A stretch of 64,000 bases of DNA from Chitinispirillaceae bacterium (lineage in GTDB: Bacteria > Fibrobacterota > Chitinivibrionia > Chitinivibrionales > Chitinispirillaceae), in the NCBI GenBank assembly GCA_016929595.1, contig JAFGIN010000115.1, positions 1 through 64,000 of the forward strand, in the 5' to 3' direction. Positions 4,269 to 28,075 of this stretch are shown in pieces (the stretch's first letter is position 1; each line of letters opens with the position of its first letter). The notes under the pieces are model-generated. The model did not search any database and was not told where the DNA came from. It saw nothing but the letters and a program-made list of their open reading frames with translations. A program made the position numbers and the translations under genes.

Positions 4269-4342
4269 GGTAGTCCCAAGGGGAATTGAACCCCTGTTGC
4301 AGGAATGAAAATCCTGTGTCCTAACCACTAGACGATGGGACC
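4268..4342 (-). tRNA. tRNA-Glu (anticodon TTC)
   Basis: The minus strand folds as a tRNA. The acceptor is GGTCCCA/TGGGACT (with a G1-U72 wobble), the D-arm region is TCGTCTAGTGGTTAGGACA, the anticodon loop is ATTTTCATT with anticodon TTC, and the T-arm is AGGGGTTCAATTCCCCT. The discriminator is A and CCA is encoded. The tRNA reads GAA/GAG. It is followed directly by an intrinsic terminator. Confidence 0.95.
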
Positions 4343-5551: not shown

Positions 5552-6381
5552 ACAGCGTTTTCCGCCTGTGTTGCAGTCTCTTTTTTCTTTCTTACTTTAG
5601 GAGGAAGAATAAAGCCACTTTCGGTAATGATCTGATCCATCGGCACATCATGGTATTCAAAAGGAAGGGCTTCTGATGTCATCTGACAATCAAATGCAAA
5701 AGCAAATATCGGGACTTTTCCTCTCAGTTCCATAAAAAAGCGATCGTAACATCCTTTGCCGTTTCCCAACCGTCCGCCAAATTTGTCAAATGCGACTCCC
5801 GGAGCGATTATCAGGTCAAGATCACTTCTAAGAAACTTTCCCCGGAGAGAATGTGCCGGTTCTGTGATATTAAACTCCCCGGTAACACAATCCGCTTTGA
5901 GATCCCTGATTTCTGCAATTCCGATATCGTATGACGGCGCGGTGCAATACGGAAGGATAACCCGTTTTCCTTCACGCAACATCTCTTCGATAAGTTCGAC
6001 CGTTGACACTTCACTGCCGGTACTGTGATATATCATCACAACAGATGCTGCTTTGTACTCCTCAGTCGACTTAAGATGAGTATGCACTGCTGCAGATTTT
6101 TCCATCCGTTCGTTATGCTGAAGACTCTTGCGGGAAATTCTATGCTGTTTCCGAAGTTCCGTCTTTTTCTCAGACTGTACATTAACATAACTGTTCAGTT
6201 GTGTTTCAATAGGGTTTGTAATGGCGTTGAGCTCACTTTTAACCCGGTTACTGTATCTGCGGACCGTCGCCAGCAGCTGCGCACCTTTTTTCAGAAATGT
6301 CGGAAGTTCTTTCGAACCAAAAAAAATGAGGATGAGAAGGACAACCAGGATAAATTCGGAAAATCCGATTCCGGTATTCAT
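5548..6381 (-). CDS. TatA/B-like membrane domain fused to 5-formyltetrahydrofolate cyclo-ligase
   Basis: One 277-residue reading frame carries two recognisable parts. Residues 1-60 are a TatA/TatB-type module: a short N-terminal hydrophobic helix (FSEFILVVLLILIFFGSKELP) with the FGxKxLP hinge, then an amphipathic helix. Residues ~72-255 are a full 5-formyl-THF cyclo-ligase, starting KKTELRKQHRISRKSL. It contains EVSTVELIEEML..GKRVILPY and the ATP/substrate loop RLGNGKGCYDRF. That enzyme converts 5-formyl-THF to 5,10-methenyl-THF using ATP. No stop or slippery site separates the halves. The gene follows tatA and overlaps the DUF2953 start by ATGA. Either the chain is a bifunctional membrane-tethered enzyme, or TatB-like sequence has been captured as an anchor. 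Confidence 0.85.
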   Translation of the reverse strand: MNTGIGFSEFILVVLLILIFFGSKELPTFLKKGAQLLATVRRYSNRVKSELNAITNPIETQLNSYVNVQSEKKTELRKQHRISRKSLQHNERMEKSAAVHTHLKSTEEYKAASVVMIYHSTGSEVSTVELIEEMLREGKRVILPYCTAPSYDIGIAEIRDLKADCVTGEFNITEPAHSLRGKFLRSDLDLIIAPGVAFDKFGGRLGNGKGCYDRFFMELRGKVPIFAFAFDCQMTSEALPFEYHDVPMDQIITESGFILPPKVRKKKETATQAENAV

Positions 6382-6424
6382 GTGACGTTTCTACTCCGCT
6401 ATTGTGTTTATACTATTGACCAGT

Positions 6425-6625
6425 TCAGGATTTTTTCCCGGTAGTTTCATCCTTTTTCTCTTTCTCTTCCGATGTCAGCTGCTGTTCAGCATCAGAAGTT
6501 GCTTTCTTAAACTCTTTAAGTCCGGTACCTAATCCTTTTGCAAGTTCCGGAATTTTTTTTGCACCAAACAATACAATCACAATAACAAGTATCAGCACCA
6601 GTTCCTGAACACCAATAAATCCCAT
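6425..6625 (-). CDS. tatA: Twin-arginine translocase subunit TatA/E
   Basis: The start chosen at 6625 gives [20 protein letters not shown] and 66 residues. A GGAGG lies six bases upstream; the longer in-frame start at 6673 has no such signal. Sequence shows the single N-terminal membrane helix, the hinge [14 protein letters not shown], an amphipathic helix with FKKATSD, and a short charged tail. TatA polymers form the protein-conducting element for folded Tat substrates. TatC is not in the window. The gene leads the operon with the TatB-like/cyclo-ligase fusion. A candidate Tat substrate (11624-12001) lies 5 kb away. Confidence 0.93.
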
Positions 6626-6838
6626 TGCAAACCTCCATCTTTGATGTAGCCATTTTTTTAGCGCGGTTTCCATTTATAAAGGAAATTTTACCGCCGCCCG
6701 CCACCCGACAATCGGTGCGTAATTTTTTCGTTGCAGTACTAAATATACCGTAAATATTTCATAGAAGAAAGTTTAACCTGAAAAACGCAACAGTTTTGTG
6801 ATTCCAATTATTTATATTTCGATAAACAAAGGTAAAAA

Positions 6839-7585
6839 ATGGAACAAGAACAGATTATTTACGGCATACATGCCATTGAAGAGTTACTTCAAAACAGAAT
6901 TACATCAATAGATCACATTTATTTTGATCAAAGTAAAAAAAGTACCGCACTTTTTAGCCTTATGAAAACATGTCGGAAAGAGCGACTTTCGTACAATCTT
7001 ATACCGGAAGCCCGTCTTTCGCATCTTGCAGGAACAATGAAACATCAGGGGGTTGTTGCCCAGTGCAGTATGTTGCCATATCGTTCCATCGAGGAGATAC
7101 AGGAAAAGCTTTCAACCCAAAGCCATAAGCCACTTATGCTGATTCCTGCGTCGGTTGAGGATCCGGGAAACCTTGGCGCAATTATCCGTTCCTGTGCAGC
7201 ATTTAACGTTGATGCATTACTTCTTGAACGTAAAAATACCGCCCCGCTCAATGCATCAGTAGCAAAAAGCGCTGCTGGTATGCTGGAGCATGTTACAATC
7301 AGCCGTCCAAAGAATCTGGAGCAGATCGTAGAAAATTTTAAAAATCAGGGGTTTTCTATTATTGGTGCAGAGATGGAAGGTGGCAAAGAACCTGATAAGA
7401 TCGATTTTACCATTCCGAGTATCCTTATTCTCGGTGGTGAAAACAGGGGAATCCCCCCCTATCTCAAAAAACAATGTACCGGATTTGTCTCAATACCGAT
7501 TGCGCAGCATGTTCAGTCACTCAATGTTAGTGCTGCAACTGCGGTTTTGTTGTATGAGTGCAACAGACAGCGAAGCAGGATATAA
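6839..7585 (+). CDS. rlmB: TrmH-family 23S rRNA (guanosine-2'-O)-methyltransferase
   Basis: A 248-residue SPOUT methyltransferase. The N-terminal substrate-binding domain starts IIYGIHAIEELL. The three knotted-domain motifs follow: DPGNLGAIIRSCAAFNVDALLL, ILILGGENRGIPPYL, and SLNVSAATAVLLYE. RlmB methylates G2251 of 23S rRNA. The length and the GIHAI opening favour RlmB over other TrmH paralogues, but the target base cannot be read from the sequence. AAAGGT precedes the ATG. It is divergent from the tat operon and convergent with the next minus-strand gene, with five bases between stops. Confidence 0.85.
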   Translation: MEQEQIIYGIHAIEELLQNRITSIDHIYFDQSKKSTALFSLMKTCRKERLSYNLIPEARLSHLAGTMKHQGVVAQCSMLPYRSIEEIQEKLSTQSHKPLMLIPASVEDPGNLGAIIRSCAAFNVDALLLERKNTAPLNASVAKSAAGMLEHVTISRPKNLEQIVENFKNQGFSIIGAEMEGGKEPDKIDFTIPSILILGGENRGIPPYLKKQCTGFVSIPIAQHVQSLNVSAATAVLLYECNRQRSRI

Positions 7586-7590
7586 ACTAT

Positions 7591-8166
7591 CTACGCAAAG
7601 AGCTTATGGGCAAGCCAGATACAATTTTCCGCAAATCGATCTATTGTGGCGATCCCTTCCTGATCATTTGCAACTTCACCTGGTTCCCGTCCGATTGCTA
7701 CATTCCAGTAACTCGAACCGGGAACGACCATATCGTTAATCATGTACCAGTAAAGAAGTTGTGCAAAAGTAAAATTTTGTCCAGCCCGTCGTGCAACCGC
7801 AACAGGTCCACCAATTTTCCTTGCGAAAAGATTTCCATTGGAACGTGCAACATATCCGGCTCTGTCAAGAAACCCCATCAGATTCGGAGTTGCCGATCCA
7901 AAGTAGACTGGTGATCCACAAATGATAATTTCTGAATCGCACATAACTTCAAATATTCTGTGGAAATCATCATCGTTTATCACGCATTTTTTATCAGTTT
8001 TTTTTCTACAGACGCCACACGCCTTGCAAGGCATCACTGTTACATCTGCAAAAGATATGACCTCACCTTTAATTCCAGCCTTTTCAAAATGACCGGAAAT
8101 ACGATCCATCAACGCTTCCGTATTTCCATCTTTTCGTGGACTACCGCTTAAGAGGAGAGCTTTCAT
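7591..8166 (-). CDS. Iron-sulfur flavoprotein, NADPH-dependent FMN reductase family
   Basis: A 191-residue flavodoxin-like protein. The FMN phosphate loop is GSPRKDGNTEALM, and a second FMN motif is GSPVYFGSATPNLMGFLDR. Between them is CKACGVCRKKTDKKC, which fits the compact C-x2-C-x2-C-x(4-7)-C [4Fe-4S] motif of archaeal/bacterial iron-sulfur flavoproteins (Isf). The likely role is low-potential electron transfer or reduction of small oxidants in an anaerobe. Its ATG overlaps the stop of the upstream gene (ATGA), so the two are coupled. Confidence 0.85.
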   Translation of the reverse strand: MKALLLSGSPRKDGNTEALMDRISGHFEKAGIKGEVISFADVTVMPCKACGVCRKKTDKKCVINDDDFHRIFEVMCDSEIIICGSPVYFGSATPNLMGFLDRAGYVARSNGNLFARKIGGPVAVARRAGQNFTFAQLLYWYMINDMVVPGSSYWNVAIGREPGEVANDQEGIATIDRFAENCIWLAHKLFA

Positions 8167-9536
8167 TCTTTATCAAAACCAAAAAATGAATCAATCTGAT
8201 CGGCAACATCATCGCCGGTAATGCTATACTGCTCTCTGTCAGGATTGCTCTGATTTTTTTCCGGTATGATGCGATCGGTAATCAACGGAGATTTTTGAAT
8301 GACCTGTGGTTTAATATCGTTTTGAGATAACTGCGCTGACAATTCGGCTTTCTGTTTGCTAAAAGATGCAGGAGTCTTTATCTCCCCATCTGCAGAAGGC
8401 GATAGCCCCGAAACAGATTGAGGTGGAATCTTTTTTGTTTCCTGAGAAGAAAATTGTGGTTTCTGAGGTTCAAAACTGATTTCAGAGTCTTCCTCCTCAG
8501 TACTTTGAGCAGGCTTCAAACTCTGTGGCCTGATAGTTATTTTAGCTGTCTCAGAATGGAAATTGGGGATCTTGGTCATATCCAGATCCATTATCGTTTC
8601 CATAGAAAAATCACCATCATCGGAATCGACGCCCTTGATCTGCTTCTTCTGATCATCAAGCGGTTTATTTACAATTGATGAAAACCCTGCTTCGTTATCT
8701 TCATCAACTGTAAGAACATCCTTTGTCATTTCTTCAAAAGAAAATTCCGATTCCTGTTCCTGAGGAGTCGACGCGGAAGCGATCACAGCCGATTCTTCCT
8801 TTTGCAAATCAGCTGCATCTCCGGCAGAAACCTGATCCTGAGGTGTAAACACAGGAATATCAGCATCCTCAACCGGAAGAACTTCAAGGTGCGATACAGA
8901 AACCGGTTCAAGAGAGAATTCCTCCTCTTCATCATTATCAACAGGTTTCGTTTTTTCCGGAACAGGATCTGCAAGACGCATTATATCACTGATTTCTTCT
9001 TCATCTTCAGAGCCAAACATCGATTGAGCCAGAGCGGCGTTTCCTGGATTTACACTGTTGGGCGGCTCAGACTTCACGACAGTTGCTGGTATCGCAGGAG
9101 CAGCAACCGAAGCCCCTAATACCTCATCTCTCCCGATTGAAACAGTTTTGGGCTCACGATACACGGGTTCTTCTCTGACAGACTGAACAGAAAAGCTCTC
9201 TTTTATGTAACTTGCATAATAGTTAAGAAGCGTTTCGATATATTTGACGAAAAACACCTCAAAAAGATGAAGGTTGGGCTTGTAAAGTTTCCGGATTGTG
9301 TCGATGAGGCGGGCGATCTCGCTTTTCAACCGTTCTTTGGAAACAGATCCCATCGAATATGAGAGCAGTAATGAATCCGCTTCAGAAACATACTCCCCGA
9401 TCGAGACTATATAAGGATTTCTTTCGTTGATCATCGATTTTTCTTTGCTGTCGATAACCATTCTGACGATTATCCATATCAACGAGGCGACTACTCCGCC
9501 TGCGAGGATACCTAACAAAAAACTGACTGAGTCCAT
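8163..9536 (-). CDS. Membrane-anchored acidic protein of unknown function
   Basis: A 457-residue protein with no domain I recognise. Residues 5-27 are a transmembrane helix. Residues ~30-120 are predicted helical (KERLKSEIARLIDTIRKLY, then FFVKYIETLLNYYASYIKE). Residues ~125-440 are low-complexity and acidic, rich in Asp, Glu, Pro, Ser and Gln, likely disordered. The end is ordered-looking (DDVADQIDSFFGFDKE). It resembles a membrane scaffold with a long cytoplasmic linker and a short terminal docking peptide. It is translationally coupled to the iron-sulfur flavoprotein. Confidence 0.65.
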   Translation of the reverse strand: MDSVSFLLGILAGGVVASLIWIIVRMVIDSKEKSMINERNPYIVSIGEYVSEADSLLLSYSMGSVSKERLKSEIARLIDTIRKLYKPNLHLFEVFFVKYIETLLNYYASYIKESFSVQSVREEPVYREPKTVSIGRDEVLGASVAAPAIPATVVKSEPPNSVNPGNAALAQSMFGSEDEEEISDIMRLADPVPEKTKPVDNDEEEEFSLEPVSVSHLEVLPVEDADIPVFTPQDQVSAGDAADLQKEESAVIASASTPQEQESEFSFEEMTKDVLTVDEDNEAGFSSIVNKPLDDQKKQIKGVDSDDGDFSMETIMDLDMTKIPNFHSETAKITIRPQSLKPAQSTEEEDSEISFEPQKPQFSSQETKKIPPQSVSGLSPSADGEIKTPASFSKQKAELSAQLSQNDIKPQVIQKSPLITDRIIPEKNQSNPDREQYSITGDDVADQIDSFFGFDKE

Positions 9537-9903
9537 ATATGTCCGACCTCCATTTATTCGGTTAAGTCCAATATTCCAAATCTTAAGAGAAAAAACTAAG
9601 CACAGGTATTAATTATAGCAAAAAAAAGCAGTTTTGTCAAAAAAATACTGCTTAAGTCGTTATTTATTTATGATTTAACACCGCAAATTTCTCATTTTAT
9701 CCAATTTTGCATGGTATTTCTGACTTTTCCATGAGAACGTACCGGAAATGCCAAAAATTACAGCACCTGGCACTAACTGCATTTCGACATGCTTCCTGCA
9801 GTGACAATGAAAAACGTCGCTCATCTTTATCCCGCAACAGGCGGGAGAAACATTTTTATCACAGTTCCGGAAGCGACTCTAATCCCCCTCAAATAAATAG
9901 AGA
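9537..9903. other. Intergenic region, no gene seen
   Basis: Between the 5' end of the acidic membrane-protein gene and the terminator of gpmI. AT-rich at first; the middle (9700-9900) is less so. Short open frames here lack ribosome sites and family resemblance. The promoter of the minus-strand pair probably lies at 9540-9640. Confidence 0.4.
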
Positions 9904-9937
9904 TTAAAAAAGAGACGGCTGAAATTATTCAACCGTC
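9904..9937 (-). terminator. Intrinsic terminator downstream of gpmI
   Basis: On the minus strand GACGGTTGAA, a short loop, and TTCAGCCGTC pair over ten positions with one mismatch, followed by TCTTTTTTAATC. It lies about 130 bases past the gpmI stop, so it is a plausible end of that transcript. Confidence 0.6.
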
Positions 9938-10067
9938 AAAGAGCCGGAATTTCGTTTTTTTTCAGCAGCTCTTTATCCCCCCCCATCCACCATCGACACA
10001 ATAGAAGGGACAGGGGGATATAAATAATGATGCTATTGCAACTACACCATCAATTTTACTAAAAAAA

Positions 10068-11582
10068 TTACAGTTTTATCAACAAAGAATTACCTGTCAT
10101 ATCCGCCGGTTTTTCAACACCAAGAAGATCGAGTACTGTCGGCGCAATATCGCTCAGTTTCCCGTTTTCTCGTAACTTCACATTACCGGCACCAACTACC
10201 GTGAGCGGTACAGGATTAGTCGTATGAGCAGTCATTGGAGAGCCGTCCTCAAGCTGAGTCTGATCTGCATTTCCATGATCAGCAGTAAGTATGCAGACAC
10301 CGCCCAGAGACAGAGCAGCTTCAACAACATCATGCACGCATGTGTCGACTGTTTCCACAGCTTTGATAACAGCATTAAAAATACCAGTATGCCCAACCAT
10401 GTCACCATTGGCAAAATTACAGATTACAGCATCGTATTTATTGCTCTTTATCGCCTCAACAAGCTTATCCCGAACTTCAAAAGCGCTCATTTCCGGTTGT
10501 AAATCGTATGTGGCAACTTTGGGACTATTGACAAGAATACGATCTTCACCGGGGAAGGGATCGTTGAGCTGCCCATTGAAGAAAAAGGTCACGTGAGCAT
10601 ATTTTTCTGTCTCAGCACAGCGGAGCTGCTTCAATCCATTGTTTGCAAGAACTTCACCAAGAATATTTTTGTTTGACATCTCAGGATAGGCTTCAATAAA
10701 ATGTCCGTTGTCATAGTAATGAGTCATTGCAACAAAACATTTTACAAGTAATGTCTGCTTAAAGGTGTCGAAACCTGGTTCAACCATAGCTTTTGTTAAC
10801 TGGCGGGTTCTATCGAATCTGAAATTAAAAAAGAGAAACGAATCATTTTCATTAAAACCGTTATAACCAATAGTTCTGGGTTTAATAAATTCATCAGTTT
10901 CGCCCGCAGCGTATGCACCTTCAACAGCCTCTTTCCAGTTATTGACAGAAACACCCTTTCCTTCCATAATGAGGCGATACGCAGTTTCTGTTCTGTCCCA
11001 TCGATTGTCACGATCCATCGCAAAATAACGACCAACAACCGTTGCGATTTTACCAATCCCAACCTTATCGATGCCTTTCTGAAGGAGACTCATGTGTTCC
11101 ATCGCTGATTTCGGCGGTGTATCGCGTCCATCGGTAATCGCATGGATCAGAACATTGTGGAAATTAACTTTTTTGCACAGTTCAAGCAGTGAGATACAGT
11201 GCCGCGTTACAGCATGAACCCCCTCTTCCTGAATCAACCCCATCAGGTGAAGTGCGCTGTTATTCCTACGGGCAAACTCAATAGCCTGAAGAAATGCTTT
11301 ATTTTCAAAAAAATCACCATCAGAGACAGATTTATCTATTTTTGTCAGGCTCTGGTAAATAACTCTTCCTGCACCGATATTAAGATGTCCGACTTCACTG
11401 TTACCCTGATACCCTTCTGGTAACCCAACACTGAGTCCGGAGGTTTGAACAAGCGTGGTTGGTGAATTTGATTCGTATGCATCGGTAAAAGGTGTATTTG
11501 CAGTGTAAATAGCGTTACTTTTTTCGGGTTTTCCTCTGCCCCATCCATCACGGATTATAAGACAAACCGGACGTTTTTTCAT
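10068..11582 (-). CDS. gpmI: 2,3-bisphosphoglycerate-independent phosphoglycerate mutase
   Basis: A 504-residue alkaline-phosphatase-superfamily enzyme interconverting 3- and 2-phosphoglycerate in glycolysis, without a bisphosphoglycerate cofactor. Visible: metal ligand Asp12 in IIRDGWG, phospho-acceptor Ser62 in YQGNSEVGHLNIGAGR, substrate motifs HAITDGRDTPP and DRDNRWDRTE, and the second metal site NFANGDMVGHTG plus TADHGNAD. The length matches the family (~505-515). AGGAGAAG precedes the start. Single-gene transcript with its own terminator. Confidence 0.97.
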   Translation of the reverse strand: MKKRPVCLIIRDGWGRGKPEKSNAIYTANTPFTDAYESNSPTTLVQTSGLSVGLPEGYQGNSEVGHLNIGAGRVIYQSLTKIDKSVSDGDFFENKAFLQAIEFARRNNSALHLMGLIQEEGVHAVTRHCISLLELCKKVNFHNVLIHAITDGRDTPPKSAMEHMSLLQKGIDKVGIGKIATVVGRYFAMDRDNRWDRTETAYRLIMEGKGVSVNNWKEAVEGAYAAGETDEFIKPRTIGYNGFNENDSFLFFNFRFDRTRQLTKAMVEPGFDTFKQTLLVKCFVAMTHYYDNGHFIEAYPEMSNKNILGEVLANNGLKQLRCAETEKYAHVTFFFNGQLNDPFPGEDRILVNSPKVATYDLQPEMSAFEVRDKLVEAIKSNKYDAVICNFANGDMVGHTGIFNAVIKAVETVDTCVHDVVEAALSLGGVCILTADHGNADQTQLEDGSPMTAHTTNPVPLTVVGAGNVKLRENGKLSDIAPTVLDLLGVEKPADMTGNSLLIKL

Positions 11583-11623: not shown

Positions 11624-12001
11624 TTAACTTTTTTTATCTTTTTTTCTTGATCTCAAAAATTCCCAGGAAGCTTCAACTTCGCCATGACCTGAACAGGCCC
11701 AGCAGATACCACTGCCATCACAATAGTGACAGGTACCCTTTCCCTTGCAGTATGGACACTCCTCAGTGTACGATGTTTTGTTAATATTTCCCTCGGTCAC
11801 ATGTGGTACGACTGTCTTTCGTTTACCGGTTCCTTCGCAGAAGCTGCATTTTTTTTCGCCGCCGCAATAGGAACAAACACCCTTCTTATCCTTGCAGAAA
11901 GGACACTCCTTTTCATCATACCGTGCTTCCCTTTTTTCAATTCGCGCACATGATGCTGCAACCACTGCAGATAATCCGGCAAGGAAATTTCGTCTCTTCA
12001 T
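11624..12001 (-). CDS. Small Tat-type lipoprotein with six CxxC (DnaJ-like zinc-finger) motifs
   Basis: A 125-residue protein. The N-terminus MKRRNFLAGLSAVVAASC has a twin-arginine start and a lipobox with Cys18, so it looks like a Tat-exported lipoprotein. The mature part is a chain of CxxC units with glycines: CPFC, CSYC, CSFC, then CPYC, CHYC and CWAC. This is the CxxCxGxG style of the DnaJ cysteine-rich domain, which binds two zinc ions. There is no J domain. Tat export would allow zinc loading before transport (inference). AGGAGG lies just upstream. It is divergent from the sheath-like gene at 12130. Confidence 0.75.
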   Translation of the reverse strand: MKRRNFLAGLSAVVAASCARIEKREARYDEKECPFCKDKKGVCSYCGGEKKCSFCEGTGKRKTVVPHVTEGNINKTSYTEECPYCKGKGTCHYCDGSGICWACSGHGEVEASWEFLRSRKKDKKS

Positions 12002-12129: not shown

Positions 12130-13749
12130 ATGGAAAAGGATAAATCTTCCATTCATTCGACAAACGTCTCCCTGGGAGTCATGTCTGAAGTGAGAAGAGA
12201 AACAGCTGCTTCGAAAGCACAACCCGCAATTCTCTTAATTTCTGGCGACTTTGGATTCCACTCGGATTCAGCATTGAAAATCAGCGCATCACAATGGAAC
12301 GATTTTTTTGGTGCAAACAAATTTGAACTCACCTGCTCAGTTGAACATAATCTTCCGGAATACATCAAACCCTTTTTCCTTGAGTATCCGGTAGAATCGA
12401 TAAATGATTTTTCGATTGATAATATAATCGAAAAAACTCCGCATCTTTCTCCAATTAAAACAGCACTCACTGTCACCGAACAACTCAGATTATCAAGAAT
12501 CGACAAATCTGAAGCCTACAGCCGCCTCGAGGCTCTTCAGGTACCGGAATCTTTGAAAAACAAGATTCTCATTAGTCTGAAACTCAGCCCCAACCGCGAC
12601 ACACCTTCAAGTAACCCGCACCAGATCGACTCGATTCTTTCCATGATAGACATTCAGGAGGAACCTGCAGCACCTCAAACCAGAACTGATAAATTTATCG
12701 CCACAGTTACCTCAAAGGACACATCAAACCCTGATTACGAGAGCGTCAAAACATTTCTTGCAGAGATTATGAAAAAAACCGCTGATGCAATAAGAAAAAC
12801 AGTGCGATTCACAGAAATTGCACGATCATGGCACTCCCTTAAAAATATTGTTAAGATCGCAGGGAGAAATGAGATCGTCGATATCTATTGTGCATCATCA
12901 CCCCGGGAAGAGGCTGTAGAATTACTCTCTTCAGTGCTTGGTGCCATGCCGGACGACCTGACTCCCGACCTCCTTTTATGGAATTATGACTATACCTTGA
13001 GCACCGCTTCCATGCAGGAACTTGAACAGGTGTCAATAATTGCTGAGAGATATAAAACAGTATTATGTACATCAATATGTAATTCTGAAGAGATTAACCG
13101 TGCGCTCTATTCAACTCAACCTGTCCGGATTGTAATGGAACACGATCAAATGATCCCTTATAATCGTTTTCGCAACAACACCGCATCCAGATCATGCATT
13201 CTCTGTTCAGCTCCTGAATATTCAGAATTGAACGCCAGCGAATTCAACCTTGCCAGCGGTGCGTGGATTATCACCGCCCAGTGGATGATATCTCTTGTGG
13301 AATCTGGTAATCCATTTCAGTGGCCCCTAAGAATTCAATCTATTACCGGTTTTGGTGCAACATCAAAAGTCGATGATTCCCGGATTGAGGAAGTTGCACA
13401 GTACGGAATAACTATCACAGAAAATTGCGAGTATCTTCATCGTGTCAGTCCGGTTTCAGCAATTGACATTTCGGAGGAATCCCCTTACCGAAGCGCCGGA
13501 TTTAATATTTTAGTAAACAAAACGGCTAGACTGGCTGCTACCCGGGTATCATCAAGAGAGATCACAGGTGAAAATGCCGCTTCAGTTTTGCATGATTTTC
13601 TTGTTACAAATCTCAAACCATATCATATTTTATCCAGTGATACAGCTTTGAGCGTCGACGTTTCAAACAATGTTGCTACCATTGAGCTTAATTCGGATTG
13701 TACAATTGACGGGTTTGGGATCGGGTTCCAATTTTCGATAAACATGTAA
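12130..13749 (+). CDS. Contractile-sheath-like protein, TssB and TssC related regions in one chain
   Basis: A 539-residue protein without a signal peptide. Residues ~1-130 follow the TssB (VipA) layout: AILLISGDFGF, then a conserved W-F stretch, a strand, and LEYPVESINDFSIDNIIEKTPHL, which mirrors TssB's L-x-F-x-S-x-x-DF-x-P-x-x-I-x-x-x-P-x-L. Residues ~220-539 follow TssC (VipB): WHSLKNIVKIAGRNEIVDIYC, DLLLWNYDYTLSTASMQELEQ, then the sheath core around NPFQWPLRIQSITGFGATSK and a C-terminal beta segment. TssB and TssC assemble the contractile tube of type VI secretion systems. No other T6SS gene is seen. It heads a five-gene run. Recognition is by pattern, not by a computed alignment. A divergent sheath-fold protein with another job is possible. 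Confidence 0.5.
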   Translation: MEKDKSSIHSTNVSLGVMSEVRRETAASKAQPAILLISGDFGFHSDSALKISASQWNDFFGANKFELTCSVEHNLPEYIKPFFLEYPVESINDFSIDNIIEKTPHLSPIKTALTVTEQLRLSRIDKSEAYSRLEALQVPESLKNKILISLKLSPNRDTPSSNPHQIDSILSMIDIQEEPAAPQTRTDKFIATVTSKDTSNPDYESVKTFLAEIMKKTADAIRKTVRFTEIARSWHSLKNIVKIAGRNEIVDIYCASSPREEAVELLSSVLGAMPDDLTPDLLLWNYDYTLSTASMQELEQVSIIAERYKTVLCTSICNSEEINRALYSTQPVRIVMEHDQMIPYNRFRNNTASRSCILCSAPEYSELNASEFNLASGAWIITAQWMISLVESGNPFQWPLRIQSITGFGATSKVDDSRIEEVAQYGITITENCEYLHRVSPVSAIDISEESPYRSAGFNILVNKTARLAATRVSSREITGENAASVLHDFLVTNLKPYHILSSDTALSVDVSNNVATIELNSDCTIDGFGIGFQFSINM

Positions 13750-13799: not shown

Positions 13800-14891
13800 A
13801 TGTTCAAATTTTCGAGTGATTCGGCACGGAAAAACAACAGATTCAAGAGTAAAAGCCTGATGAGGTTCACGGTTCCATCAGGTTTTCTGCTTGTAGTACT
13901 GCTATCAGCATTCATTTCCATTGCTCAATCATTATCCGGCACTGATGATTTCATTGATCACACGGTCAAAAAAGGTGAAACAATAAGTCTACTGTGCATT
14001 CAATATTACGGATATTATTCACAGTCACTTGGAAAGGCTCTGACCAGAGACAATCCTTCGTTGAAAAATATTGACATAATATCCATTGGTCAAAAGATTC
14101 TGTTCAAGAAACCTATAGAAAATGTTTCATCACCGGAGCAGTCAAACGCAGCAGATTCCACTACAACCGGAATGATTCCGGAGAATGATACAGTATTTAT
14201 AAAGCAGATCGACCTTAGCCAGGGAGTTGTTACGTACCTTGAAGGAACGTCATTCATCAAAAGGTCGCCTAACAACAGATCCGTTCGATTGGTTGTAAAC
14301 ACCATTGTGAACCCTGGTGACCGAATCGAAACAGGATCTGATGGCAGAGTCGAGATTCTCATAAACAGGGAATCGGTTGTCAGAATGAAAGAAAGCAGTA
14401 TTCTGGAGTTTGACTCATTAAGAAACATTGCTGAAAAAAAAGGTAAAACGCGTTTCAATTTTTCTCTTGGATCTGTCTGGACAAAAGTTAAAAAGTTCAA
14501 GGATTCCATTTCCCGTTTTGAGCTTGAACTTCCGACAGTCATTGCAGGCGTACACGGCACAGTGTATCAGACAAGCGTCAACAAAGACCGTTCCTCTGAA
14601 GTAAAAGTATTTGAAGGAGAGGTTGCAGTCAAACGCTTTCAACCTCCGTTACAGGTACATTCCGGTAATCTAAAGAGTGGGGAGATTGCAGGACCTCGTG
14701 AAGTGGCTGGTCCCAGGGAGGTTTCTCTGGAAAAATGGACCAGAATAGTCAAGAGCATGCAAATAATCCATATTGATGAAAATGGTATTCCGGACAGTAC
14801 ATCGGAAATAAAAGAGGTACCCCGGGACAGCTGGACATTATGGAACGAGGAACGGGACCGCAAAATTGCAGAAATCTTTTCGGAGTTATAA
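13800..14891 (+). CDS. LysM-FecR domain envelope protein
   Basis: A 363-residue protein; the start could also be ATG 13860 (MRFTVPSG). A signal/anchor helix (~26-42) is followed by a LysM module (~52-102: DHTVKKGETISLLCIQYYG ... ISIGQKILF), expected to bind peptidoglycan. A FecR-type beta domain follows (~135-290: VVTYLEGTSFIKRS ... VNPGDRIETGSDGRVEIL ... VIAGVHGTVYQTSV). FecR-type domains sit in the periplasm and pass envelope signals or organise surfaces. The stop is one base before the start of the CHASE2-kinase gene, so the two are coupled. Confidence 0.85.
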   Translation: MFKFSSDSARKNNRFKSKSLMRFTVPSGFLLVVLLSAFISIAQSLSGTDDFIDHTVKKGETISLLCIQYYGYYSQSLGKALTRDNPSLKNIDIISIGQKILFKKPIENVSSPEQSNAADSTTTGMIPENDTVFIKQIDLSQGVVTYLEGTSFIKRSPNNRSVRLVVNTIVNPGDRIETGSDGRVEILINRESVVRMKESSILEFDSLRNIAEKKGKTRFNFSLGSVWTKVKKFKDSISRFELELPTVIAGVHGTVYQTSVNKDRSSEVKVFEGEVAVKRFQPPLQVHSGNLKSGEIAGPREVAGPREVSLEKWTRIVKSMQIIHIDENGIPDSTSEIKEVPRDSWTLWNEERDRKIAEIFSEL

Positions 14892-14892
14892 A

Positions 14893-17265
14893 ATGAAAAA
14901 ATTTCTGATTCTCTGCGGAGCCACACTTATTCTATCAGTTATCTATTTTCTTAATCCATTGCGGTTCATCGACAACCTTTTCTATGATCTCAACTTTACA
15001 TTTCAATCCAAATCTTCTGTTGATTCGGTGGTTATTGTCGGTATCGATCGTCAGAGTATCAAAGTCCGGGGAGCATGGCCATGGCGGCGCTCGACAACAG
15101 CGCAGCTTATCAGGCAGATTGCATCTGCCCGACCAAAGGTGATTGCACTTGACTTTCAATTTCCCCGAAGGGATGATGCCGGAGAAAGTGACAGCCTCTC
15201 AAAGGTATTGTCTTCCCTGAACAATGTTGTTCTTCCTTTCAGTGTTGACGGGATCAGTACGGGCACTGCACCAGATGCAAACATCTCCCTCTCCCCTGTT
15301 CTCATGCAGCACATCATTCATCAACTGACTAACAAAAACCATCTGGAACAGATCCTTTTTTACAATGCATCGGGAATAGACCTTCCGGACTCGCTCTTTT
15401 TCAAGAGCACGAAATACAGCGGCTTTCTCAATATGTCGACAAGTAATTCCAGCCAGAAGCTCCGTGAAGCGATCCACGTTATCAAAGCCGGCGACTTTTA
15501 CCTTCCATCATTTGCAGTTGCTGCTGCTGCCGCTTTTTATGGAATCCCGATGGAGAAGATTGGACTTGACGGAATGGGTAGTGTCATCATAGGAGAGAAG
15601 CAGATACCGCTCAGTTCCTATGCGGCTTCACTTTTACTCAATTTCAGAAGTGAAAAGTATCCGATACCACACTACAGCGCATCCGAAATTATCGATGGTA
15701 CATTTGACATAAGTATTTTTCAGAATAAGGCTGTTTTTATAGGGGTAACCGATCCCCTGGCTGCAGCAGACTTTTTTACAACACCGGTGCAATCACAGTA
15801 TCCCGGTGTTGCAGTCTGGGCAACGGCAGTTCTGGATATAATTCACGGTACATGGATAAAAGCCGATGCACTGTTGCCCGCAATACTCCATTATCTGCTG
15901 GTCTTTCTGATTTTTCCCGGGCTTGCACTGTTCTTTCCACCAAAACACCAGCGGCTTGCTCTGGTTACCGGTATTTTTCTTATGATTTCAGGGGTTATTG
16001 GAAGCATTGTTCTTTTCAGAATTGCACATTATTTCGTAAGCCCTGCACCACCAGTCTATTCATGGGTGTGTTTACTTATCTGGCTTGCAGCAGTACGTGT
16101 TAATCCCACGCTTGCAGGAACACCACAACTGGAATTTGACCCTCCGGTAAATGCTTCAGCCGATGTACTTCCACCTCCACCACCCGAATCTCAAATAGTA
16201 TTTAAAGCGCTCCAATGCGATACAATGGATCATATTCTCCGTAAATCAAATCTTCCATTTGCAAAAATGTCCCAAAGCGACTCCGGTACATCGCTGATGC
16301 GGACCGTAGATGAAAGCTCTACTGATCTTTTATCAAAATTTCCTGATTCCGGAGATCTCACAACACTTCTTGAGTGTGGTGGCGGACAGATCATCGGGTT
16401 GCTCGGTTCCGGTGGCATGGCGGATGTCTATCTTATGTGGCACCCCCGACTTGAATCGTATCGGGCTGTAAAAGTGATGAAACCTTACATCTCAGAGAAC
16501 TTCCTCACCCGGTTTGAAACAGAGATAAGAATTTTTTCAAAACTTGATCATCCCAACATTGTTCGCTGTTTTGGTGCAGGTGACTGGCACTCGCTTCCAT
16601 ACCTTGAAATGGAATTCGTCAATGGTGCATCATTCGAAAACATTCTTCAGATCTGTAACTTCATTACTGTCAATCAGGCGATAGCAGTCGGAGTCCTTGT
16701 CTGCAAGGCACTGGAATATGCGCACAGCAGGACTATGCATATTTATGGCAAATCTACAGAGGGAATCATTCATAGAGACCTCAAACCAGCTAATATCATG
16801 ATGACAAAAAGTGGCCGGATAAAGCTGGCCGATTTTGGTATAGCTCGTCCTCAGGAGAACTCTTTTCATAGTGCCGAAGCAGAAAATGTTGCAGGTACCC
16901 TGCCTTATATCGCTCCGGAAGTTTTTGACAGAAATGAATATATGTCGAGAACCGATACCTACGCTCTGGGAGCAACTCTTTACGAATTGATCAGCGGTGA
17001 AAGAGTGTTTCCACAGACTACCGTTACCGAAATCATAAATGCAAAAATAAACGGAAAGTACAAACCGCTCTCATCATCGGTTAAAATACCACTTGAAGTT
17101 GAAGCAATTATCGATAAATCATTGAACGTTGAGCCATCCGGAAGGTATCAGTCTGCAAAGGAATTACGAACCGTGCTCGAAAAGGCATTTTTCAGTACAG
17201 GCGGTAGTGACGGTTTCGGACATCTCAGCGCACTTATAAAACGTATCTGGCCATCTCAACAGTAA
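14893..17265 (+). CDS. CHASE2 sensor-Ser/Thr protein kinase
   Basis: The start chosen is ATG 14893 (MKKFLILCG), nine bases after GGAG; a longer frame starts at 14866 inside the previous gene. 790 residues. An N-terminal helix, an extracytoplasmic CHASE2 domain (~25-310, VVIVGIDRQSIKVRGAWPWRR ... FIGVTDPLAAADFF), and three membrane helices (~325-415) are followed by a Pro-rich linker. The eukaryotic-type kinase domain is at ~500-765. The kinase is intact: LGSGGMADVY, catalytic Lys in YRAVKVMK, HRDLKPANI near residue 625, DFGIARP, and TLPYIAPEVF. It should phosphorylate Ser/Thr inside the cell in response to a periplasmic cue. The downstream FHA protein is the obvious candidate phosphothreonine reader. 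Confidence 0.9.
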   Translation: MKKFLILCGATLILSVIYFLNPLRFIDNLFYDLNFTFQSKSSVDSVVIVGIDRQSIKVRGAWPWRRSTTAQLIRQIASARPKVIALDFQFPRRDDAGESDSLSKVLSSLNNVVLPFSVDGISTGTAPDANISLSPVLMQHIIHQLTNKNHLEQILFYNASGIDLPDSLFFKSTKYSGFLNMSTSNSSQKLREAIHVIKAGDFYLPSFAVAAAAAFYGIPMEKIGLDGMGSVIIGEKQIPLSSYAASLLLNFRSEKYPIPHYSASEIIDGTFDISIFQNKAVFIGVTDPLAAADFFTTPVQSQYPGVAVWATAVLDIIHGTWIKADALLPAILHYLLVFLIFPGLALFFPPKHQRLALVTGIFLMISGVIGSIVLFRIAHYFVSPAPPVYSWVCLLIWLAAVRVNPTLAGTPQLEFDPPVNASADVLPPPPPESQIVFKALQCDTMDHILRKSNLPFAKMSQSDSGTSLMRTVDESSTDLLSKFPDSGDLTTLLECGGGQIIGLLGSGGMADVYLMWHPRLESYRAVKVMKPYISENFLTRFETEIRIFSKLDHPNIVRCFGAGDWHSLPYLEMEFVNGASFENILQICNFITVNQAIAVGVLVCKALEYAHSRTMHIYGKSTEGIIHRDLKPANIMMTKSGRIKLADFGIARPQENSFHSAEAENVAGTLPYIAPEVFDRNEYMSRTDTYALGATLYELISGERVFPQTTVTEIINAKINGKYKPLSSSVKIPLEVEAIIDKSLNVEPSGRYQSAKELRTVLEKAFFSTGGSDGFGHLSALIKRIWPSQQ

Positions 17266-17281
17266 ATTATATGAGGAACAA

Positions 17282-18922
17282 ATGAGTTACTATTATCTTG
17301 AGGTAATCAGGGGTACACAGACAGGAAAACGCTTTCTGCTCACCGATGGAGCGATAAGTATCGGACGAAACCCTCAAAATACCATTGTGCTGGATAATGA
17401 GAAATGTGTATCCGGACATCATTTGATAATCTACAAGTCACCAGAACGCATGTATCTTCAGGACCTTCAGAGCACCAATGGATCATATGTTAACGAACAT
17501 CAGGCAACAGAAATAGAACTCTCACCGGAGGACCAGATTGGTTTCGGAAAGACGGGGCCACGTCTTAAGGTCATCTGCTCCTCAGTTGAACTCCCGCTTG
17601 ATAACACCGGATTTGAAAACGCTCAACAGAAAACAGATGAAAAAGGTACATCGGCCTCCCTGCCATTGATGTCTGAACATGCTTCTACCTACGAAGAAAA
17701 TCAGAATACGATATTCAAAGCTAAAAATGGGCTGCATCCATCAGGAGATGGTCTCAATCCGTCAAAAACGATGGAATTTGAACAAAAAATCCTGAATAAA
17801 AATATCTGTTCCGAAGAGATGCAGGATTTGATGAACAATGACGAGCGGATGGAGAAAATTCTTGCAAGAGGTAATCTTGGCTCGACACAAACCAGTATGC
17901 TGCGAACGGTCCATAAAGCACACAAATCGATGCGTCGGCAATGGTATTATGTAGTAATCTCAATCCTTACAGTCAGTCTTTGTGTTATCGCCTTTTTTGG
18001 AATCCGTGCAATTCAGTACAAACAGATCATTTCCAAAGCAAAAATACTCAAAGAGGATATAGAGGAATATGACAAAAAAATCGCCTCTGCAAAAAGTAAA
18101 CCGACTAAAGATAAAAAGGAGCTGGAGCGGCTGATAAAAGAGCTTGAGGAAAAGCAGAAATCGCTTTCGACAATAAAAAACCAGATTGACGTCGCTGATT
18201 TTGGAAAATTTTACGAAGATCCTCTGGAGCAGCGGATTGATGAAGTACTGGTTAGATTTGGAGAAACAGATTATCAAATCCCCAAAGAGATGAAAGAACG
18301 GGTACAACACCACATAAACATATATTCGGGGAAAATGAAAAACACTATTACCCGTTACTTTCAAAGGAAAGAGAAATACTTCCCCTTCATTCAGAAGGTT
18401 TTCAGAGAAAAGAACATTCCGCTCGATCTTGCATATGTCTCGATGCTTGAAAGCGGATTTAACCCTATGGCTCTGAGCCATGCTGGAGCAAGGGGACTCT
18501 GGCAGTTCATGCCGCACACAGGACGACGGTTTGGTATGATTGTCAATGATAAAATTGACGAGCGAACAAACCCTGAAAAAGCAACTTACGCAGCCGCAGA
18601 GTATTTCAAGGAACTTATCGGAATGTTTGGTGGAAAAAGCGCTGTGATGCTTTGTATGGCTGCATACAATGCCGGCGAGGGCCGCATCATGGGCGCACTG
18701 CGAAAGATTGAGGATCCCATGAGAAACAGGGATTTCTGGTACATTTATAGAATGGGATATCTCGCGGAGGAAACCAATGAATACATTCCCAGAGTTATCT
18801 CGCTTATTATTCTTTCTGAGTACCCCGATGAGTATGGTTTCGGCAGTAGTGCAACGAAAGCTGCAGAGCAGCAGCTCGAAGAGGCCAGTGATTTTATCGA
18901 AGTTGATTATAAAGTTGAATGA
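17282..18922 (+). CDS. FHA domain-membrane-coiled coil-lytic transglycosylase
   Basis: A 546-residue protein of unusual make-up. Residues 1-95 are an FHA phosphothreonine-binding domain (ISIGRNPQNTIVLDN ... VSGHHLII ... LQDLQSTNGSYVNEH, with the binding R, S-x-x-H and N-G). A linker and one membrane helix (~222-243) follow, then a charged coiled coil (~248-300) and an SLT lytic transglycosylase domain (~365-500). The SLT domain has the catalytic Glu near 389 (AYVSMLESGFNPMALSHAGA), GLWQFMPHTGRRFG, and AAYNAGEGRI. Topology: FHA inside, peptidoglycan-cleaving domain in the periplasm. AGGAAC precedes the start, 16 bases after the kinase gene. Phosphorylation inside could thus gate wall cleavage outside (inference). 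Confidence 0.9.
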   Translation: MSYYYLEVIRGTQTGKRFLLTDGAISIGRNPQNTIVLDNEKCVSGHHLIIYKSPERMYLQDLQSTNGSYVNEHQATEIELSPEDQIGFGKTGPRLKVICSSVELPLDNTGFENAQQKTDEKGTSASLPLMSEHASTYEENQNTIFKAKNGLHPSGDGLNPSKTMEFEQKILNKNICSEEMQDLMNNDERMEKILARGNLGSTQTSMLRTVHKAHKSMRRQWYYVVISILTVSLCVIAFFGIRAIQYKQIISKAKILKEDIEEYDKKIASAKSKPTKDKKELERLIKELEEKQKSLSTIKNQIDVADFGKFYEDPLEQRIDEVLVRFGETDYQIPKEMKERVQHHINIYSGKMKNTITRYFQRKEKYFPFIQKVFREKNIPLDLAYVSMLESGFNPMALSHAGARGLWQFMPHTGRRFGMIVNDKIDERTNPEKATYAAAEYFKELIGMFGGKSAVMLCMAAYNAGEGRIMGALRKIEDPMRNRDFWYIYRMGYLAEETNEYIPRVISLIILSEYPDEYGFGSSATKAAEQQLEEASDFIEVDYKVE

Positions 18923-19933
18923 TTGACTGTTACCGTTTCAGAAAGGTGTCTTTTGCTTACGGGGTGTTACACATATCTGTCAGAAAATGACTGGAAAGAA
19001 AAAATATTTGCCTTCGATTCAATTGCACGATGTTGCACCTTATGCCCAAGAGAGTGCAGGATCGACCGGTTGAATGGCGAAAAAGGGTTTTGCGAAGCCC
19101 CTTCAACAATGATCATTTCGAGTATCTTTGCTCACCATGGTGAAGAACCACCTGTTTCCGGTAGTAAAGGATCGGGAACGGTATTTTTTTCATATTGCAC
19201 ACTTAAATGCTGTTTTTGTCAGAATTATCAGATTTCACATGAGTATGAAGGTGTGCGGTACACAGAGCAGGAACTCGCAGAGGCACTGCTGAGACTTCAG
19301 AATGAAGGTTGTCATAATATCAATCTCGTAACCGCAACGCATTTTCTTCCCTGGGTTTTAAAGTCGTTGAAAATTGCTGCCGAAAAGGGGCTTGAGATAC
19401 CAATCGTATACAATTGCGGTGGTTATGAACGTGTTGAAATAATAAAGCTTCTTGATGGAGTTGTTGACATATACCTGCCGGATATGAAATATGGTACCAG
19501 TCAGGCAGCCGCTCAGTTTTCACACGCAGCTGATTATGTTGAATGTAACCGCAATGCCATACGTGAGATGTTCCGTCAGACGGGCCCGCTCCGGATCAAC
19601 AAAGAAGGACTGGCAAAACGCGGATTATGCATCCGTCATCTTATACTTCCGGGGAATGTTCAAGGGAGTTCTTCAATTGTGGCATTTTTGAAAGAACATT
19701 TTGATCCTGAAGACATTACGATAAGTTTAATGGCTCAGTACAGCCCGCTTTACAAAGCAATGGAAACAGATTCAATCAACCGTCGAATAACGGAAGATGA
19801 ATACGAAGTCACTAAAAATGAATTCTCAGTTGCAGGATTCGATGGATTTTTCCAGGAATTTGAAAAAATGAACGAGAACTTTATCATCGATTTTAAAACA
19901 AGAAAGAGCGAACGGCTAATCGAGGAAGAGTAA
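18923..19933 (+). CDS. Radical SAM protein, PflA-like
   Basis: A 336-residue member of the radical SAM family often named putative pyruvate formate-lyase activating enzyme. An N-terminal cysteine cluster CTLCPRECRIDR...GFC precedes the radical SAM motif CTLKCCFCQN (C-x3-C-x2-C) near residue 92, then NINLVTATHF, YNCGGYE and DIYLPDMKYG. The substrate is unknown. The frame opens with TTG directly after the FHA-SLT stop. A second TTG at 18953 has AAAGGTG just upstream and may be the true start (326 residues). Last gene of the operon-like run. Confidence 0.8.
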   Translation: MTVTVSERCLLLTGCYTYLSENDWKEKIFAFDSIARCCTLCPRECRIDRLNGEKGFCEAPSTMIISSIFAHHGEEPPVSGSKGSGTVFFSYCTLKCCFCQNYQISHEYEGVRYTEQELAEALLRLQNEGCHNINLVTATHFLPWVLKSLKIAAEKGLEIPIVYNCGGYERVEIIKLLDGVVDIYLPDMKYGTSQAAAQFSHAADYVECNRNAIREMFRQTGPLRINKEGLAKRGLCIRHLILPGNVQGSSSIVAFLKEHFDPEDITISLMAQYSPLYKAMETDSINRRITEDEYEVTKNEFSVAGFDGFFQEFEKMNENFIIDFKTRKSERLIEEE

Positions 19934-20295: not shown

Positions 20296-22359
20296 ATGCC
20301 AACAATTATGAGTCTTAAAAAAAATAGTGTCCTTTGCTTCACTGTAGTTTTCATCTTTATATGTTCACTTCATACACATGCAGGCCAGAGCAGAAGGAGT
20401 GCCACTACAGGAGAATTGGATAAAATCCTTAAAGCATATGCCCGCAACATCGAGAATGAATCCAGAAAGCATCCGATCCGCTTTGCAGTAATCCCGTTTA
20501 CTTCATCCGTACAGACACCATCAGACCCCAATTCATTTGGGAATTACATCTCAGAAAAACTCCTGAATTACCTGCCTGCATCAAACGATAAAATAAAACT
20601 CTTTGAAAGAAACAGACTTGATGCACTTATTAAAGAATACCAGCTTGAATTAAGCGGTTTACTGTCCGAAGCGCAGGCATTGAAAATTGGAGAACTTGCC
20701 CCTATCGATTTTATCCTGACAGGTACCTATGCCGTTTTAAAAACCAGAGTATCCATAACAGGAAGGCTCATTGATGTTACCACTGGAGAAATTGTTTTCA
20801 GCACAACAAATGAGTGTGCTATCGGTGAGGAATTTAAAGATCTTCTACCGCAGGAAACATTTCAGCAAACCGGATCTGCAAAATCTCAAAACAGTGTTCA
20901 ATCTGTGTGTGAAAAAAAAAATTCGGAATTTAAGAAAAAAGTTAATGCCCTTCCGGCAGAAAAACAGTTTTCGTTTCTAATTACTGAAGCGATCAGGCAC
21001 CCGTTTGATACCATCTGCCCGGAAATCCATTTGTCAACAATAAAAAAATGTTCGCAGACACACCAGAATCCATCGTTGTATTCAGAATTTCTTATACAAA
21101 CTCTCGCATCGTTGAAAGATCCTGAGAATGATTTCAGAACCGATCAGATATTCAGCTATTTTCTTGCAGATAATGTAATCGACTCTAAAGAGTGGAATGC
21201 GGGAATTAAGGCACTTTCTAAAATCAAACGGGTTGACCGTTATTTTCCCAGACTCATAATAGCCGATTCACTCACCGATGAATTTGAATCCAGACTTTCA
21301 TCCCTTGTTCGGTTATGTAATCAAGGAAAAGTTGGTGTTCCGCCTGTTCCCTTCGACATTCTGTTTTACGAGTCACTCAGATCCCTTGGTATAACAAATC
21401 AATCTAATTACACCAACAGGGGTAATTACGACATTCTCAGCAGACAGGCGCACGTATTATTGCATCTTCTCAAAAAACATACAAAGAACCTTACTGATAC
21501 GATCTCATACCGTTTCGCGGATATACTGGATGATTACTGGCGATCTTTACGATATACAGAAACCAGTGACTCCCTGCAGGCGCAACTTTTTTCCATGATA
21601 AACAGATCTGATCTTAAAAAGTCATCTTCTGAGATACGATCAATCGCAAGCACACTTATCAGTGATCTCTTTGAAAAAGACACTGCATCTTTACAATATC
21701 ATACAAAAGCATCAAAAGCGGCTCATGAATTTGTATTTTTTTGTAAAAAGATACTTCTTTCACTTGCATCCGAAATGAATCAGCAGGAAGCTCGTAACTC
21801 ACCTCTTCCTGCATTGTTTTTATTTACTAACACAAAATCGTCAATTACCCCATCAATCGATTCTCTTTCGTTCTGGATCTCATCGGAAGATAAGTATTTG
21901 CGCCAGAAAAGTGTGAACTATGTTGTCTATATGGATAAGCACGCAATACTGCTTGAAAAAAAATTGATCCGTGTTTTACGCCAGCGAGTTCAGGGAATAA
22001 AAAGTAATGATTATGAAAACAATCGTATTGTCAGAGCTCTTGGCCAGAGCAGGACCAGAAACCCTGAGGCTCACCAGCTGTTGATACTTTGTCTTGACAG
22101 TCTTAATCACCGTTTTTCATCCGGCGACGTAGTACGGGCGCTATATACAATTGGAACGCCTGTCATACCTCTTGTTAAAATTTTTTTTGAAAAGGATATT
22201 GATTCGCATGTATTTTATACTGCGGCTTTTTTTGAACACCTGGGTGCCAGTGCAACAGAAGAAATTCCTTATCTTGAAAAATGGGCCTTCAGGGCCGGAA
22301 ATCTCAAGACTAAATATCGAATTGAAGATGCTGTCGAAAGAATTAAAAAGAATAAGTAA
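20296..22359 (+). CDS. CsgG-like/HEAT-like exported protein, paralogue A
   Basis: A 687-residue protein. The start is ATG 20296 or 20308 (MSLKKNSVLCF), neither with a strong ribosome site. A signal peptide (~1-34, no clear lipobox) is followed by a CsgG/FlgO/LpoB-like domain (~50-185). The domain shows IRFAVIPFTS, FGNYISEKLLNYL, KLFERNRLDALIKE, IGELAPIDFILTGTYAVLK and GRLIDVTTGEIVFS. The remaining ~450 residues are helical and end in HEAT-like units. CsgG-like domains occur in outer-membrane secretion and envelope-assembly lipoproteins. Followed at once by a diverged copy. Confidence 0.7.
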   Translation: MPTIMSLKKNSVLCFTVVFIFICSLHTHAGQSRRSATTGELDKILKAYARNIENESRKHPIRFAVIPFTSSVQTPSDPNSFGNYISEKLLNYLPASNDKIKLFERNRLDALIKEYQLELSGLLSEAQALKIGELAPIDFILTGTYAVLKTRVSITGRLIDVTTGEIVFSTTNECAIGEEFKDLLPQETFQQTGSAKSQNSVQSVCEKKNSEFKKKVNALPAEKQFSFLITEAIRHPFDTICPEIHLSTIKKCSQTHQNPSLYSEFLIQTLASLKDPENDFRTDQIFSYFLADNVIDSKEWNAGIKALSKIKRVDRYFPRLIIADSLTDEFESRLSSLVRLCNQGKVGVPPVPFDILFYESLRSLGITNQSNYTNRGNYDILSRQAHVLLHLLKKHTKNLTDTISYRFADILDDYWRSLRYTETSDSLQAQLFSMINRSDLKKSSSEIRSIASTLISDLFEKDTASLQYHTKASKAAHEFVFFCKKILLSLASEMNQQEARNSPLPALFLFTNTKSSITPSIDSLSFWISSEDKYLRQKSVNYVVYMDKHAILLEKKLIRVLRQRVQGIKSNDYENNRIVRALGQSRTRNPEAHQLLILCLDSLNHRFSSGDVVRALYTIGTPVIPLVKIFFEKDIDSHVFYTAAFFEHLGASATEEIPYLEKWAFRAGNLKTKYRIEDAVERIKKNK

Positions 22360-22373
22360 CAGGATTGAAATCA

Positions 22374-26259: not shown

Positions 26260-26495
26260 GTTCCGAATTAAAGAATCTGTTTGATTCCAATTTTACAAAG
26301 GTTTTAAATGTTTTTTTTGCAGATTACGTACATTTACTATTTTTTAAAGAAGGATAGTATTGTTCGGCTTTAATTACTAACGTTAAAACCAGGTATTTTA
26401 TTATTTCATTTTGCTGTTGCAAAACGCATCAGAAAATCTAAAACAACGTGAATTTCAGTAACTTTCTAATATCATCAGCAGCTCGGGGGGAGTAC

Positions 26496-27980: not shown

Positions 27981-28026
27981 ATTTCAATTTTCAGGTAAAG
28001 AATTAAATAATTGAATCGGTTATTTA

Positions 28027-28056
28027 CTCATGAACCGTAATTGAAATAATCATGAG
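28027..28056. promoter_or_regulatory. Inverted repeat upstream of CotH-like gene
   Basis: CTCATGA and TCATGAG form a perfect seven-base inverted repeat with a 16-base spacer, 20-50 bases before the CotH-like start. It could be an operator; no known regulator motif is recognised. Confidence 0.25.
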
Positions 28057-28075
28057 CATATATAAACTATAAAAT

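Follow-up and report, generated by a model that had tools for sequence, protein, structure and literature searches.

A single-chain TssB-TssC sheath protein in a Chitinispirillaceae genome and its probable link to the type VI secretion system

Introduction

What does a sheath protein do at a locus that shows no other part of the machine to which sheaths belong? The question is raised by an intact open reading frame (ORF) at positions 12130 to 13749 of a 64,000-nucleotide stretch of Chitinispirillaceae bacterium contig JAFGIN010000115.1 (the window, meaning that whole stretch). An initial annotation of the sequence read the 539-residue product as TssB- and TssC-like regions fused in one protein without a type VI secretion system (T6SS), and suggested a contractile or sheath-fold polymer of an undescribed type. 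Here we conclude that the protein is a natural single-chain TssB-TssC fusion with a sheath fold, and we put forward a role for it as an accessory of the cell's own T6SS. In the open-access literature (subscription papers lay outside the search), we found no description of a TssB-TssC fusion that occurs in nature, and no work on the T6SS of Fibrobacterota.

Results

The window protein joins TssB and TssC in one chain

The ORF begins with ATG and faces no long ORF on the opposite strand. Its parts are as follows.

12130 to 13749, forward strand: single-chain TssB-TssC sheath paralogue of 539 residues (ORF call, profiles, fold)
12163 to 12189, forward strand: N-terminal strand-like segment around NVSLGV, residues ~12-20 (alignment by eye)
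12217 to 12579, forward strand: TssB (VipA) domain, residues ~30-150 (hhalign to TssB; Foldseek match to 5urw_1A)
12625 to 12654, forward strand: linker motif IDSILSMIDI, residues 166-175 (alignment; disordered in the model)
12655 to 13746, forward strand: TssC (VipB) domains, residues ~176-539 (hhalign to TssC; model)
Residues 507-538, forward strand: C-terminal three-stranded handshake region (monomer model)

Taken alone, the protein gives weak matches (Pfam VipA, E 0.0017, and VipB, E 0.1; NCBIfam TssB, 0.0017) and falls below the curated Pfam and NCBIfam cut-offs for canonical TssB and TssC. The family tells more. Eight full-length members come from different genomes, namely the window protein and seven homologues from the same family and order at 22-32% identity, the named ones being metagenome-assembled genomes (MAGs) of Chitinispirillaceae or Fibrobacter sp. 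By hhalign, residues 30-150 match the TssB profile (E 6.6e-10) and residues ~162-501 the TssC profile (E 8.8e-11), while a hidden Markov model (HMM) of the eight fusions matches separate, neighbouring TssB (model ~26-160) and TssC (model ~177-371) genes elsewhere in the phylum, with the canonical TssB and then the adjacent TssC matched in the right order. One homologue (L024) matches both NCBIfam models by itself (5e-7 and 7e-6).

We therefore regard it as practically certain that the window protein is a TssB-TssC fusion, with TssB at residues ~30-150, a disordered linker, and TssC from residue ~166 to the C-terminus. The profile comparison suggested by the initial annotation thus matched both partners and bore out the joining of the two proteins and the TssB layout of the N-terminal part. 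Its TssC-like region is likewise confirmed, with a start near residue 166 and not ~220, and of the NPFQWPLRI stretch that it took for a conserved TssC core only P395 is invariant in the family alignment. We reject chance similarity on the family-level profiles and the fold, and an assembly or frameshift error because intact single ORFs of similar length occur in 15 genomes of the order.

The predicted fold is that of a T6SS sheath subunit

Two AlphaFold models of the monomer were obtained (predicted local distance difference test, pLDDT, 80 and 83; predicted template modelling score 0.78 and 0.81). The seven best PDB matches are all TssC chains of T6SS sheaths (E 1.8e-8 to 1e-5), the TssB chain 5urw_1A is also matched (Foldseek probability 0.99, root-mean-square deviation 3.5), and sheaths of phages and of extracellular contractile injection systems (eCIS) rank after those of the T6SS, so that the comparison with T6SS sheaths proposed at the outset came out in favor of the fusion. 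Superposed globally on PDB sheaths, the models fit loosely (template modelling score 0.4-0.6, 12-14% identity), which the flexibility of a sheath subunit with several domains would lead one to expect.

As to the handshake strands by which sheath subunits are joined, the monomer model contains all three at the C-terminus (507-512, 515-526, and 529-538), as anticipated for a member of the sheath fold. The N-terminal strand of TssB is a less firm assignment, in that the NVSLGV segment is placed like it in an alignment made by eye and has low pLDDT in the model. This segment is kept in clade A of the family (see below), mostly absent from clade B, and absent from type I fusions.

The linker carries a motif like the ClpV-binding helix of TssC

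Within the disordered linker lies one conserved island, IDSILSMIDI, with a near-invariant DxI[LM]xM pattern; D167 and M172 do not vary across clades A and B, and they stay almost invariant once type I is included. The island aligns without gaps with the N-terminal helix (VNEILEFMDI, LDYIYQTMDL) of canonical TssC proteins from this phylum; ClpV is recruited through that helix (PMC5048182). In a scan for ClpV-helix-like 10-mers, built from canonical sequences only, with the canonical 10-mers picked by a simple hand-written pattern, the linker motif ranked third or better among ~520 windows for 28 of the 37 fusions by a tally of the printed top-3 lists, and lower in the other 9. On alignment, the linker is thus predicted to hold the N-terminal TssC motif of a ClpV substrate.

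The family comprises several types

Four types of fusion can be told apart. Clade A (8 genomes, including that of the window) has the N-terminal strand segment together with the C-terminal handshake strands, whereas in clade B (7 genomes, 573-609 residues) the N-terminal strand is mostly missing. Type I, from a second phylum, also lacks it, and type II, from the second phylum and from Rhodobacterales plasmids, keeps an N-terminal segment and ends before the C-terminal domain of TssC. The full-length profile of clade A matches one made from clade B together with the copy in second-phylum genome G190 (E 2e-33 over 514 columns).

An unrooted tree built from the TssC part unites clades A and B in one clade (support 0.999) and type II in another (1.0), with canonical TssC grouping with type II (0.97); second-phylum type II fusions branch separately from those of Rhodobacterales. 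Judged from this sequence tree, fusions may have arisen more than once. One tree sequence that is labelled canonical but falls among type I is probably L161, a fusion cut short by its contig and lying beside an FHA gene.

Core T6SS genes lie elsewhere in the genome

The initial annotation was right that no Hcp, VgrG, ClpV, TssJLM, or baseplate gene is present in the window, where no core T6SS gene was found among the ORFs read, part of which were also checked for domains. Its phrase "without a T6SS" holds for the window only, since the same genome (6.6 Mb, 224 contigs) encodes TssC on two contigs as well as TssB, Hcp, TssA/F/K/M, VgrG, and ClpV, and the genome-wide search that it recommended for Hcp, TssK, and ClpV located all three on other contigs. 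The canonical TssB/TssC copies lie on contigs C84 and C193, none near the fusion. The cluster on contig 193 contains VgrG, TssF, Hcp, TssC, TssB, TssA, TssK, and TssM, with TssG, TssE, and TssL assigned by gene order. Next to TssM stand an FHA-lytic transglycosylase and two Ser/Thr kinases (L079, 3555-5411 on the forward and 5422-10243 on the reverse strand), a make-up that is, to our knowledge, uncommon.

The same co-occurrence extends through the order. Canonical TssC and a ClpV-like gene are present in 15/15 fusion-carrying genomes (ClpV over the curated cut-off in 13), and Hcp and TssK in all 14 checked. TssC is matched in 50 of the 168 genomes of the phylum, and the overlap between fusion and TssC genomes would arise by chance with a probability of ~0.002-0.004, ignoring relatedness.

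The fusion heads an operon with a kinase and an FHA protein

Downstream of the fusion, the window encodes the following proteins.

13800 to 14891, forward strand: LysM and FecR protein (Pfam; same place in L019, L020, L021, L024, and L025)
14866 to 17265, forward strand: CHASE2 sensor with Ser/Thr kinase (Pfam; same place in relatives; an internal ATG is probably the true start)
17282 to 18922, forward strand: FHA domain, membrane helix, coiled coil, and SLT lytic transglycosylase (Pfam, paralogue comparison)
18923 to 19933, forward strand: radical SAM protein (Pfam; downstream in most clade A loci)

This order (fusion, LysM-FecR, CHASE2-kinase, FHA-SLT, radical SAM) is that of the clade A operon. 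The kinase and the FHA protein are thus encoded together (14866-18922), as in T6SS threonine phosphorylation; a Pfam search found no PP2C phosphatase in the operon, while 10/22 second-phylum loci have one. The FHA-SLT protein is a paralogue of that adjoining TssM in the genome's own T6SS cluster (38% identity over 361 residues) and homologous to a second-phylum FHA-SLT protein (L142) that directly adjoins a fusion (26% over its length). Judged from its sequence, it probably spans the membrane, with the FHA domain inside and the transglycosylase outside. The window kinase has three of its six closest paralogues near T6SS genes. Since the fusion and the FHA-SLT protein are each T6SS-type paralogues, the operon holds two of them, which shifts the case from an orphan sheath to a satellite module of the T6SS.

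Promoter and terminator scans gave no signal beyond chance. Divergent from the fusion, a gene at 11624-12001 on the reverse strand encodes a small zinc-finger-like protein (CxxCxGxG) that begins like a leader; its place is the same in L020. Farther downstream lie a tandem pair of ~680-residue proteins with CsgG/FlgO-like N-terminal domains (20296-24389) and a secreted-looking row (24613-29659; arylsulfotransferase-like, FGE-sulfatase-like, and CotH kinase), two proteins of which weakly match the Por secretion tail. A tRNA gene at 4271-4342 on the reverse strand is the sole Rfam match in the window.

Relatives place fusions beside FHA genes and inside T6SS clusters

Neighbor domains outside the Pfam-scanned proteins were identified with small home-made HMMs, and the statistics are uncorrected for relatedness, several loci sharing a family. 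In the second phylum an FHA gene directly adjoins 13 of 22 fusions. FHA genes make up 14/44 of the adjacent genes and 6/258 of the others (Fisher p 5e-9, relatedness not removed). Within five genes of the fusion, PP2C occurs in 10/22 and a kinase in 9/22, and 21/22 have FHA, PP2C, kinase, or a core T6SS gene. Some fusions of the second phylum and of Rhodobacterales sit between ClpV and VgrG or beside TssJKLM, and in Leisingera the type II gene lies between tssH and tssI, with TagH, PP2C, and kinase in the same cluster.

Type II genes between ClpV and VgrG (L143, L144, L146, L156, and L166 at 15111-18728) have variable genes just upstream, one of which (L156) encodes a Peptidase_C58 domain, and the Rhodobacterales type II proteins carry an N-terminal extension of ~500-600 residues that has no Pfam match. 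Among clade B loci, three of one family (L026, L027, and L028) have the fusion followed by a gene for a major facilitator superfamily transporter, and two others (L074 and L075) place it next to a gene that resembles histidinol dehydrogenase (judged by eye) and one that is CsgG/LpoB-like or similar.

Discussion

A proposed role for the fusion

Because the family adjoins phosphorylation-signalling genes and, in relatives, lies inside T6SS clusters, the fusion is probably an added T6SS part or regulator. We consider it fairly likely that it is a T6SS-linked accessory under FHA/kinase control, and we favor, with somewhat more reserve, the fuller explanation that it is a duplicated T6SS sheath protein that serves as an accessory part of the cell's T6SS and not as an independent machine.

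How it would act can be sketched only tentatively, and the specific mechanism that we propose, with the fusion as an end-subunit, is doubtful in its details. Sheath subunits donate strands to the adjacent subunits of the lattice. Shaped like such a subunit, the fusion would attach to the sheath or to the platform on which it assembles, probably at an end, and would there start or stop the polymer; it may serve as a sheath end-subunit or as a docking platform. The CHASE2 kinase may sense the envelope and phosphorylate a partner. The phosphate may be read by the FHA domain of the FHA-transglycosylase, which spans the membrane, and the periplasmic SLT domain may open the peptidoglycan at the site of assembly, so that this protein would tie phosphate reading to local wall opening. 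ClpV could later remove the fusion via the DxIL linker motif. Fusion types without one lending strand could bind but not pass the lattice on, which suggests end-subunits or stoppers, whereas clade A appears to keep both strand segments and could supply an internal or starting subunit.

Several observations weigh against an accessory of the T6SS. Neither the window nor the other clade A loci yielded a core T6SS gene, two loci (L022 and L023) are without parts of the operon, and the clade B loci of the same order have unrelated neighbors, with no FHA or kinase gene seen. Clade A sits on a long branch, so its function may have shifted. Absences are soft, as the genomes are MAGs.

Of the alternatives, a cytoplasmic sheath-like homopolymer, a scaffold or filament regulated by FHA and kinase and unrelated to injection, survives best, and we hold it rather unlikely. 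The presence of N- and C-terminal strand segments on one chain in clade A, as in single-chain phage sheaths, and the clade A and clade B loci with no core T6SS gene seen alongside would suit such a polymer, but T6SS genes occur in all fusion-carrying genomes of the order, two other groups have homologues within their T6SS clusters, the partner FHA-SLT protein has its paralogue in a T6SS cluster, and the ClpV-type motif is kept. An inhibitor or decoy that binds TssB/TssC ends or occupies ClpV, with the T6SS held inactive until freed by the kinase module, is in our view unlikely. Most members do lack one handshake element (the TssB strand in type I and clade B, the TssC C-terminal domain in type II), as growth-stopping subunits would, and the DxIL motif could occupy ClpV; clade A, with the window fusion, nevertheless appears to keep both ends.

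It is very improbable that the fusion is the genuine sheath of a minimal contractile injection system of its own, with tube and baseplate unrecognized. The sheath fold with its C-terminal handshake strands would fit, but no Hcp-, VgrG-, or other tube- or baseplate-like gene, as would accompany a phage or eCIS sheath, was found in the operon or conserved beside the fusion, whose neighbors are signalling and envelope proteins, and phage genomes contain no match. With T6SS genes elsewhere in the genome, we reject a stand-alone contractile machine, and the undescribed stand-alone polymer first imagined for this locus finds no support, given fusions inside T6SS clusters in relatives and an FHA-SLT paralogue from such a cluster. 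A decaying duplicate without function, suggested by low similarity to canonical TssC and the long branch, is scarcely credible in view of ORFs that are intact and full-length in all 15 fusion-carrying genomes of the order, a conserved operon order, residues invariant over large divergence, and conservation across genera and phyla.

Returning to the T6SS accessory that we favor, its broadest form is speculative, namely that single-chain TssBC proteins are an unrecognized class of T6SS parts, dedicated sheath end-subunits gated by FHA and kinase and here coupled to wall opening. If so, the polymer would be started or stopped by those types in which the TssB strand or the C-terminal domain of TssC is missing. 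How a T6SS sheath is initiated, how its length is set, and how the system is tied to threonine phosphorylation and wall opening are questions that the field still asks. The fusion, inherited with FHA/kinase genes and in other lineages placed between ClpV and VgrG, is a candidate for the physical link that they lack.

Comparison with known systems

With canonical TssB/VipA and TssC/VipB the fusion shares the fold, the domain order, a ClpV-helix-like motif, and the C-terminal handshake strands. It differs in being one chain of 539 residues, not a pair of chains from adjacent genes of a tss cluster, with a shortened TssC part and very low identity, and in being an extra copy besides tssBC, in this genome outside the tss operon. 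The one-chain topology is that of phage, pyocin, and eCIS sheaths, whose fold match is weaker (6j0n, 8kee, P1 sheath); sequence and best fold match favor T6SS sheaths. We reject a phage origin, as phage genomes gave no match.

With T6SS threonine phosphorylation (PpkA, PppA, Fha/TagH) the locus has in common a Ser/Thr kinase and an FHA gene beside the fusion, and kinase, PP2C, and FHA genes occur together in the second phylum and in annotated type II clusters. We know of no sheath fusion among the members of this pathway. The window FHA protein is distinguished by its transglycosylase and the kinase by its CHASE2 sensor, and PP2C was not detected in the operon. In Agrobacterium, PpkA and Fha act on TssL (PMC3953482).

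An annotated counterpart is the RefSeq "type VI secretion system contractile sheath large subunit" of Rhodobacterales (NZ_CP081053.1, NZ_CP042263.1), encoded between tssH and tssI and accompanied by a canonical tssC, which also joins TssB and the TssC N-domain in one chain. It differs from the window fusion in having no TssC C-terminal domain and a large N-terminal extension. The family is hidden by annotation, its Rhodobacterales form under the mere name of a sheath large subunit, and is thus within immediate reach of counting and testing.
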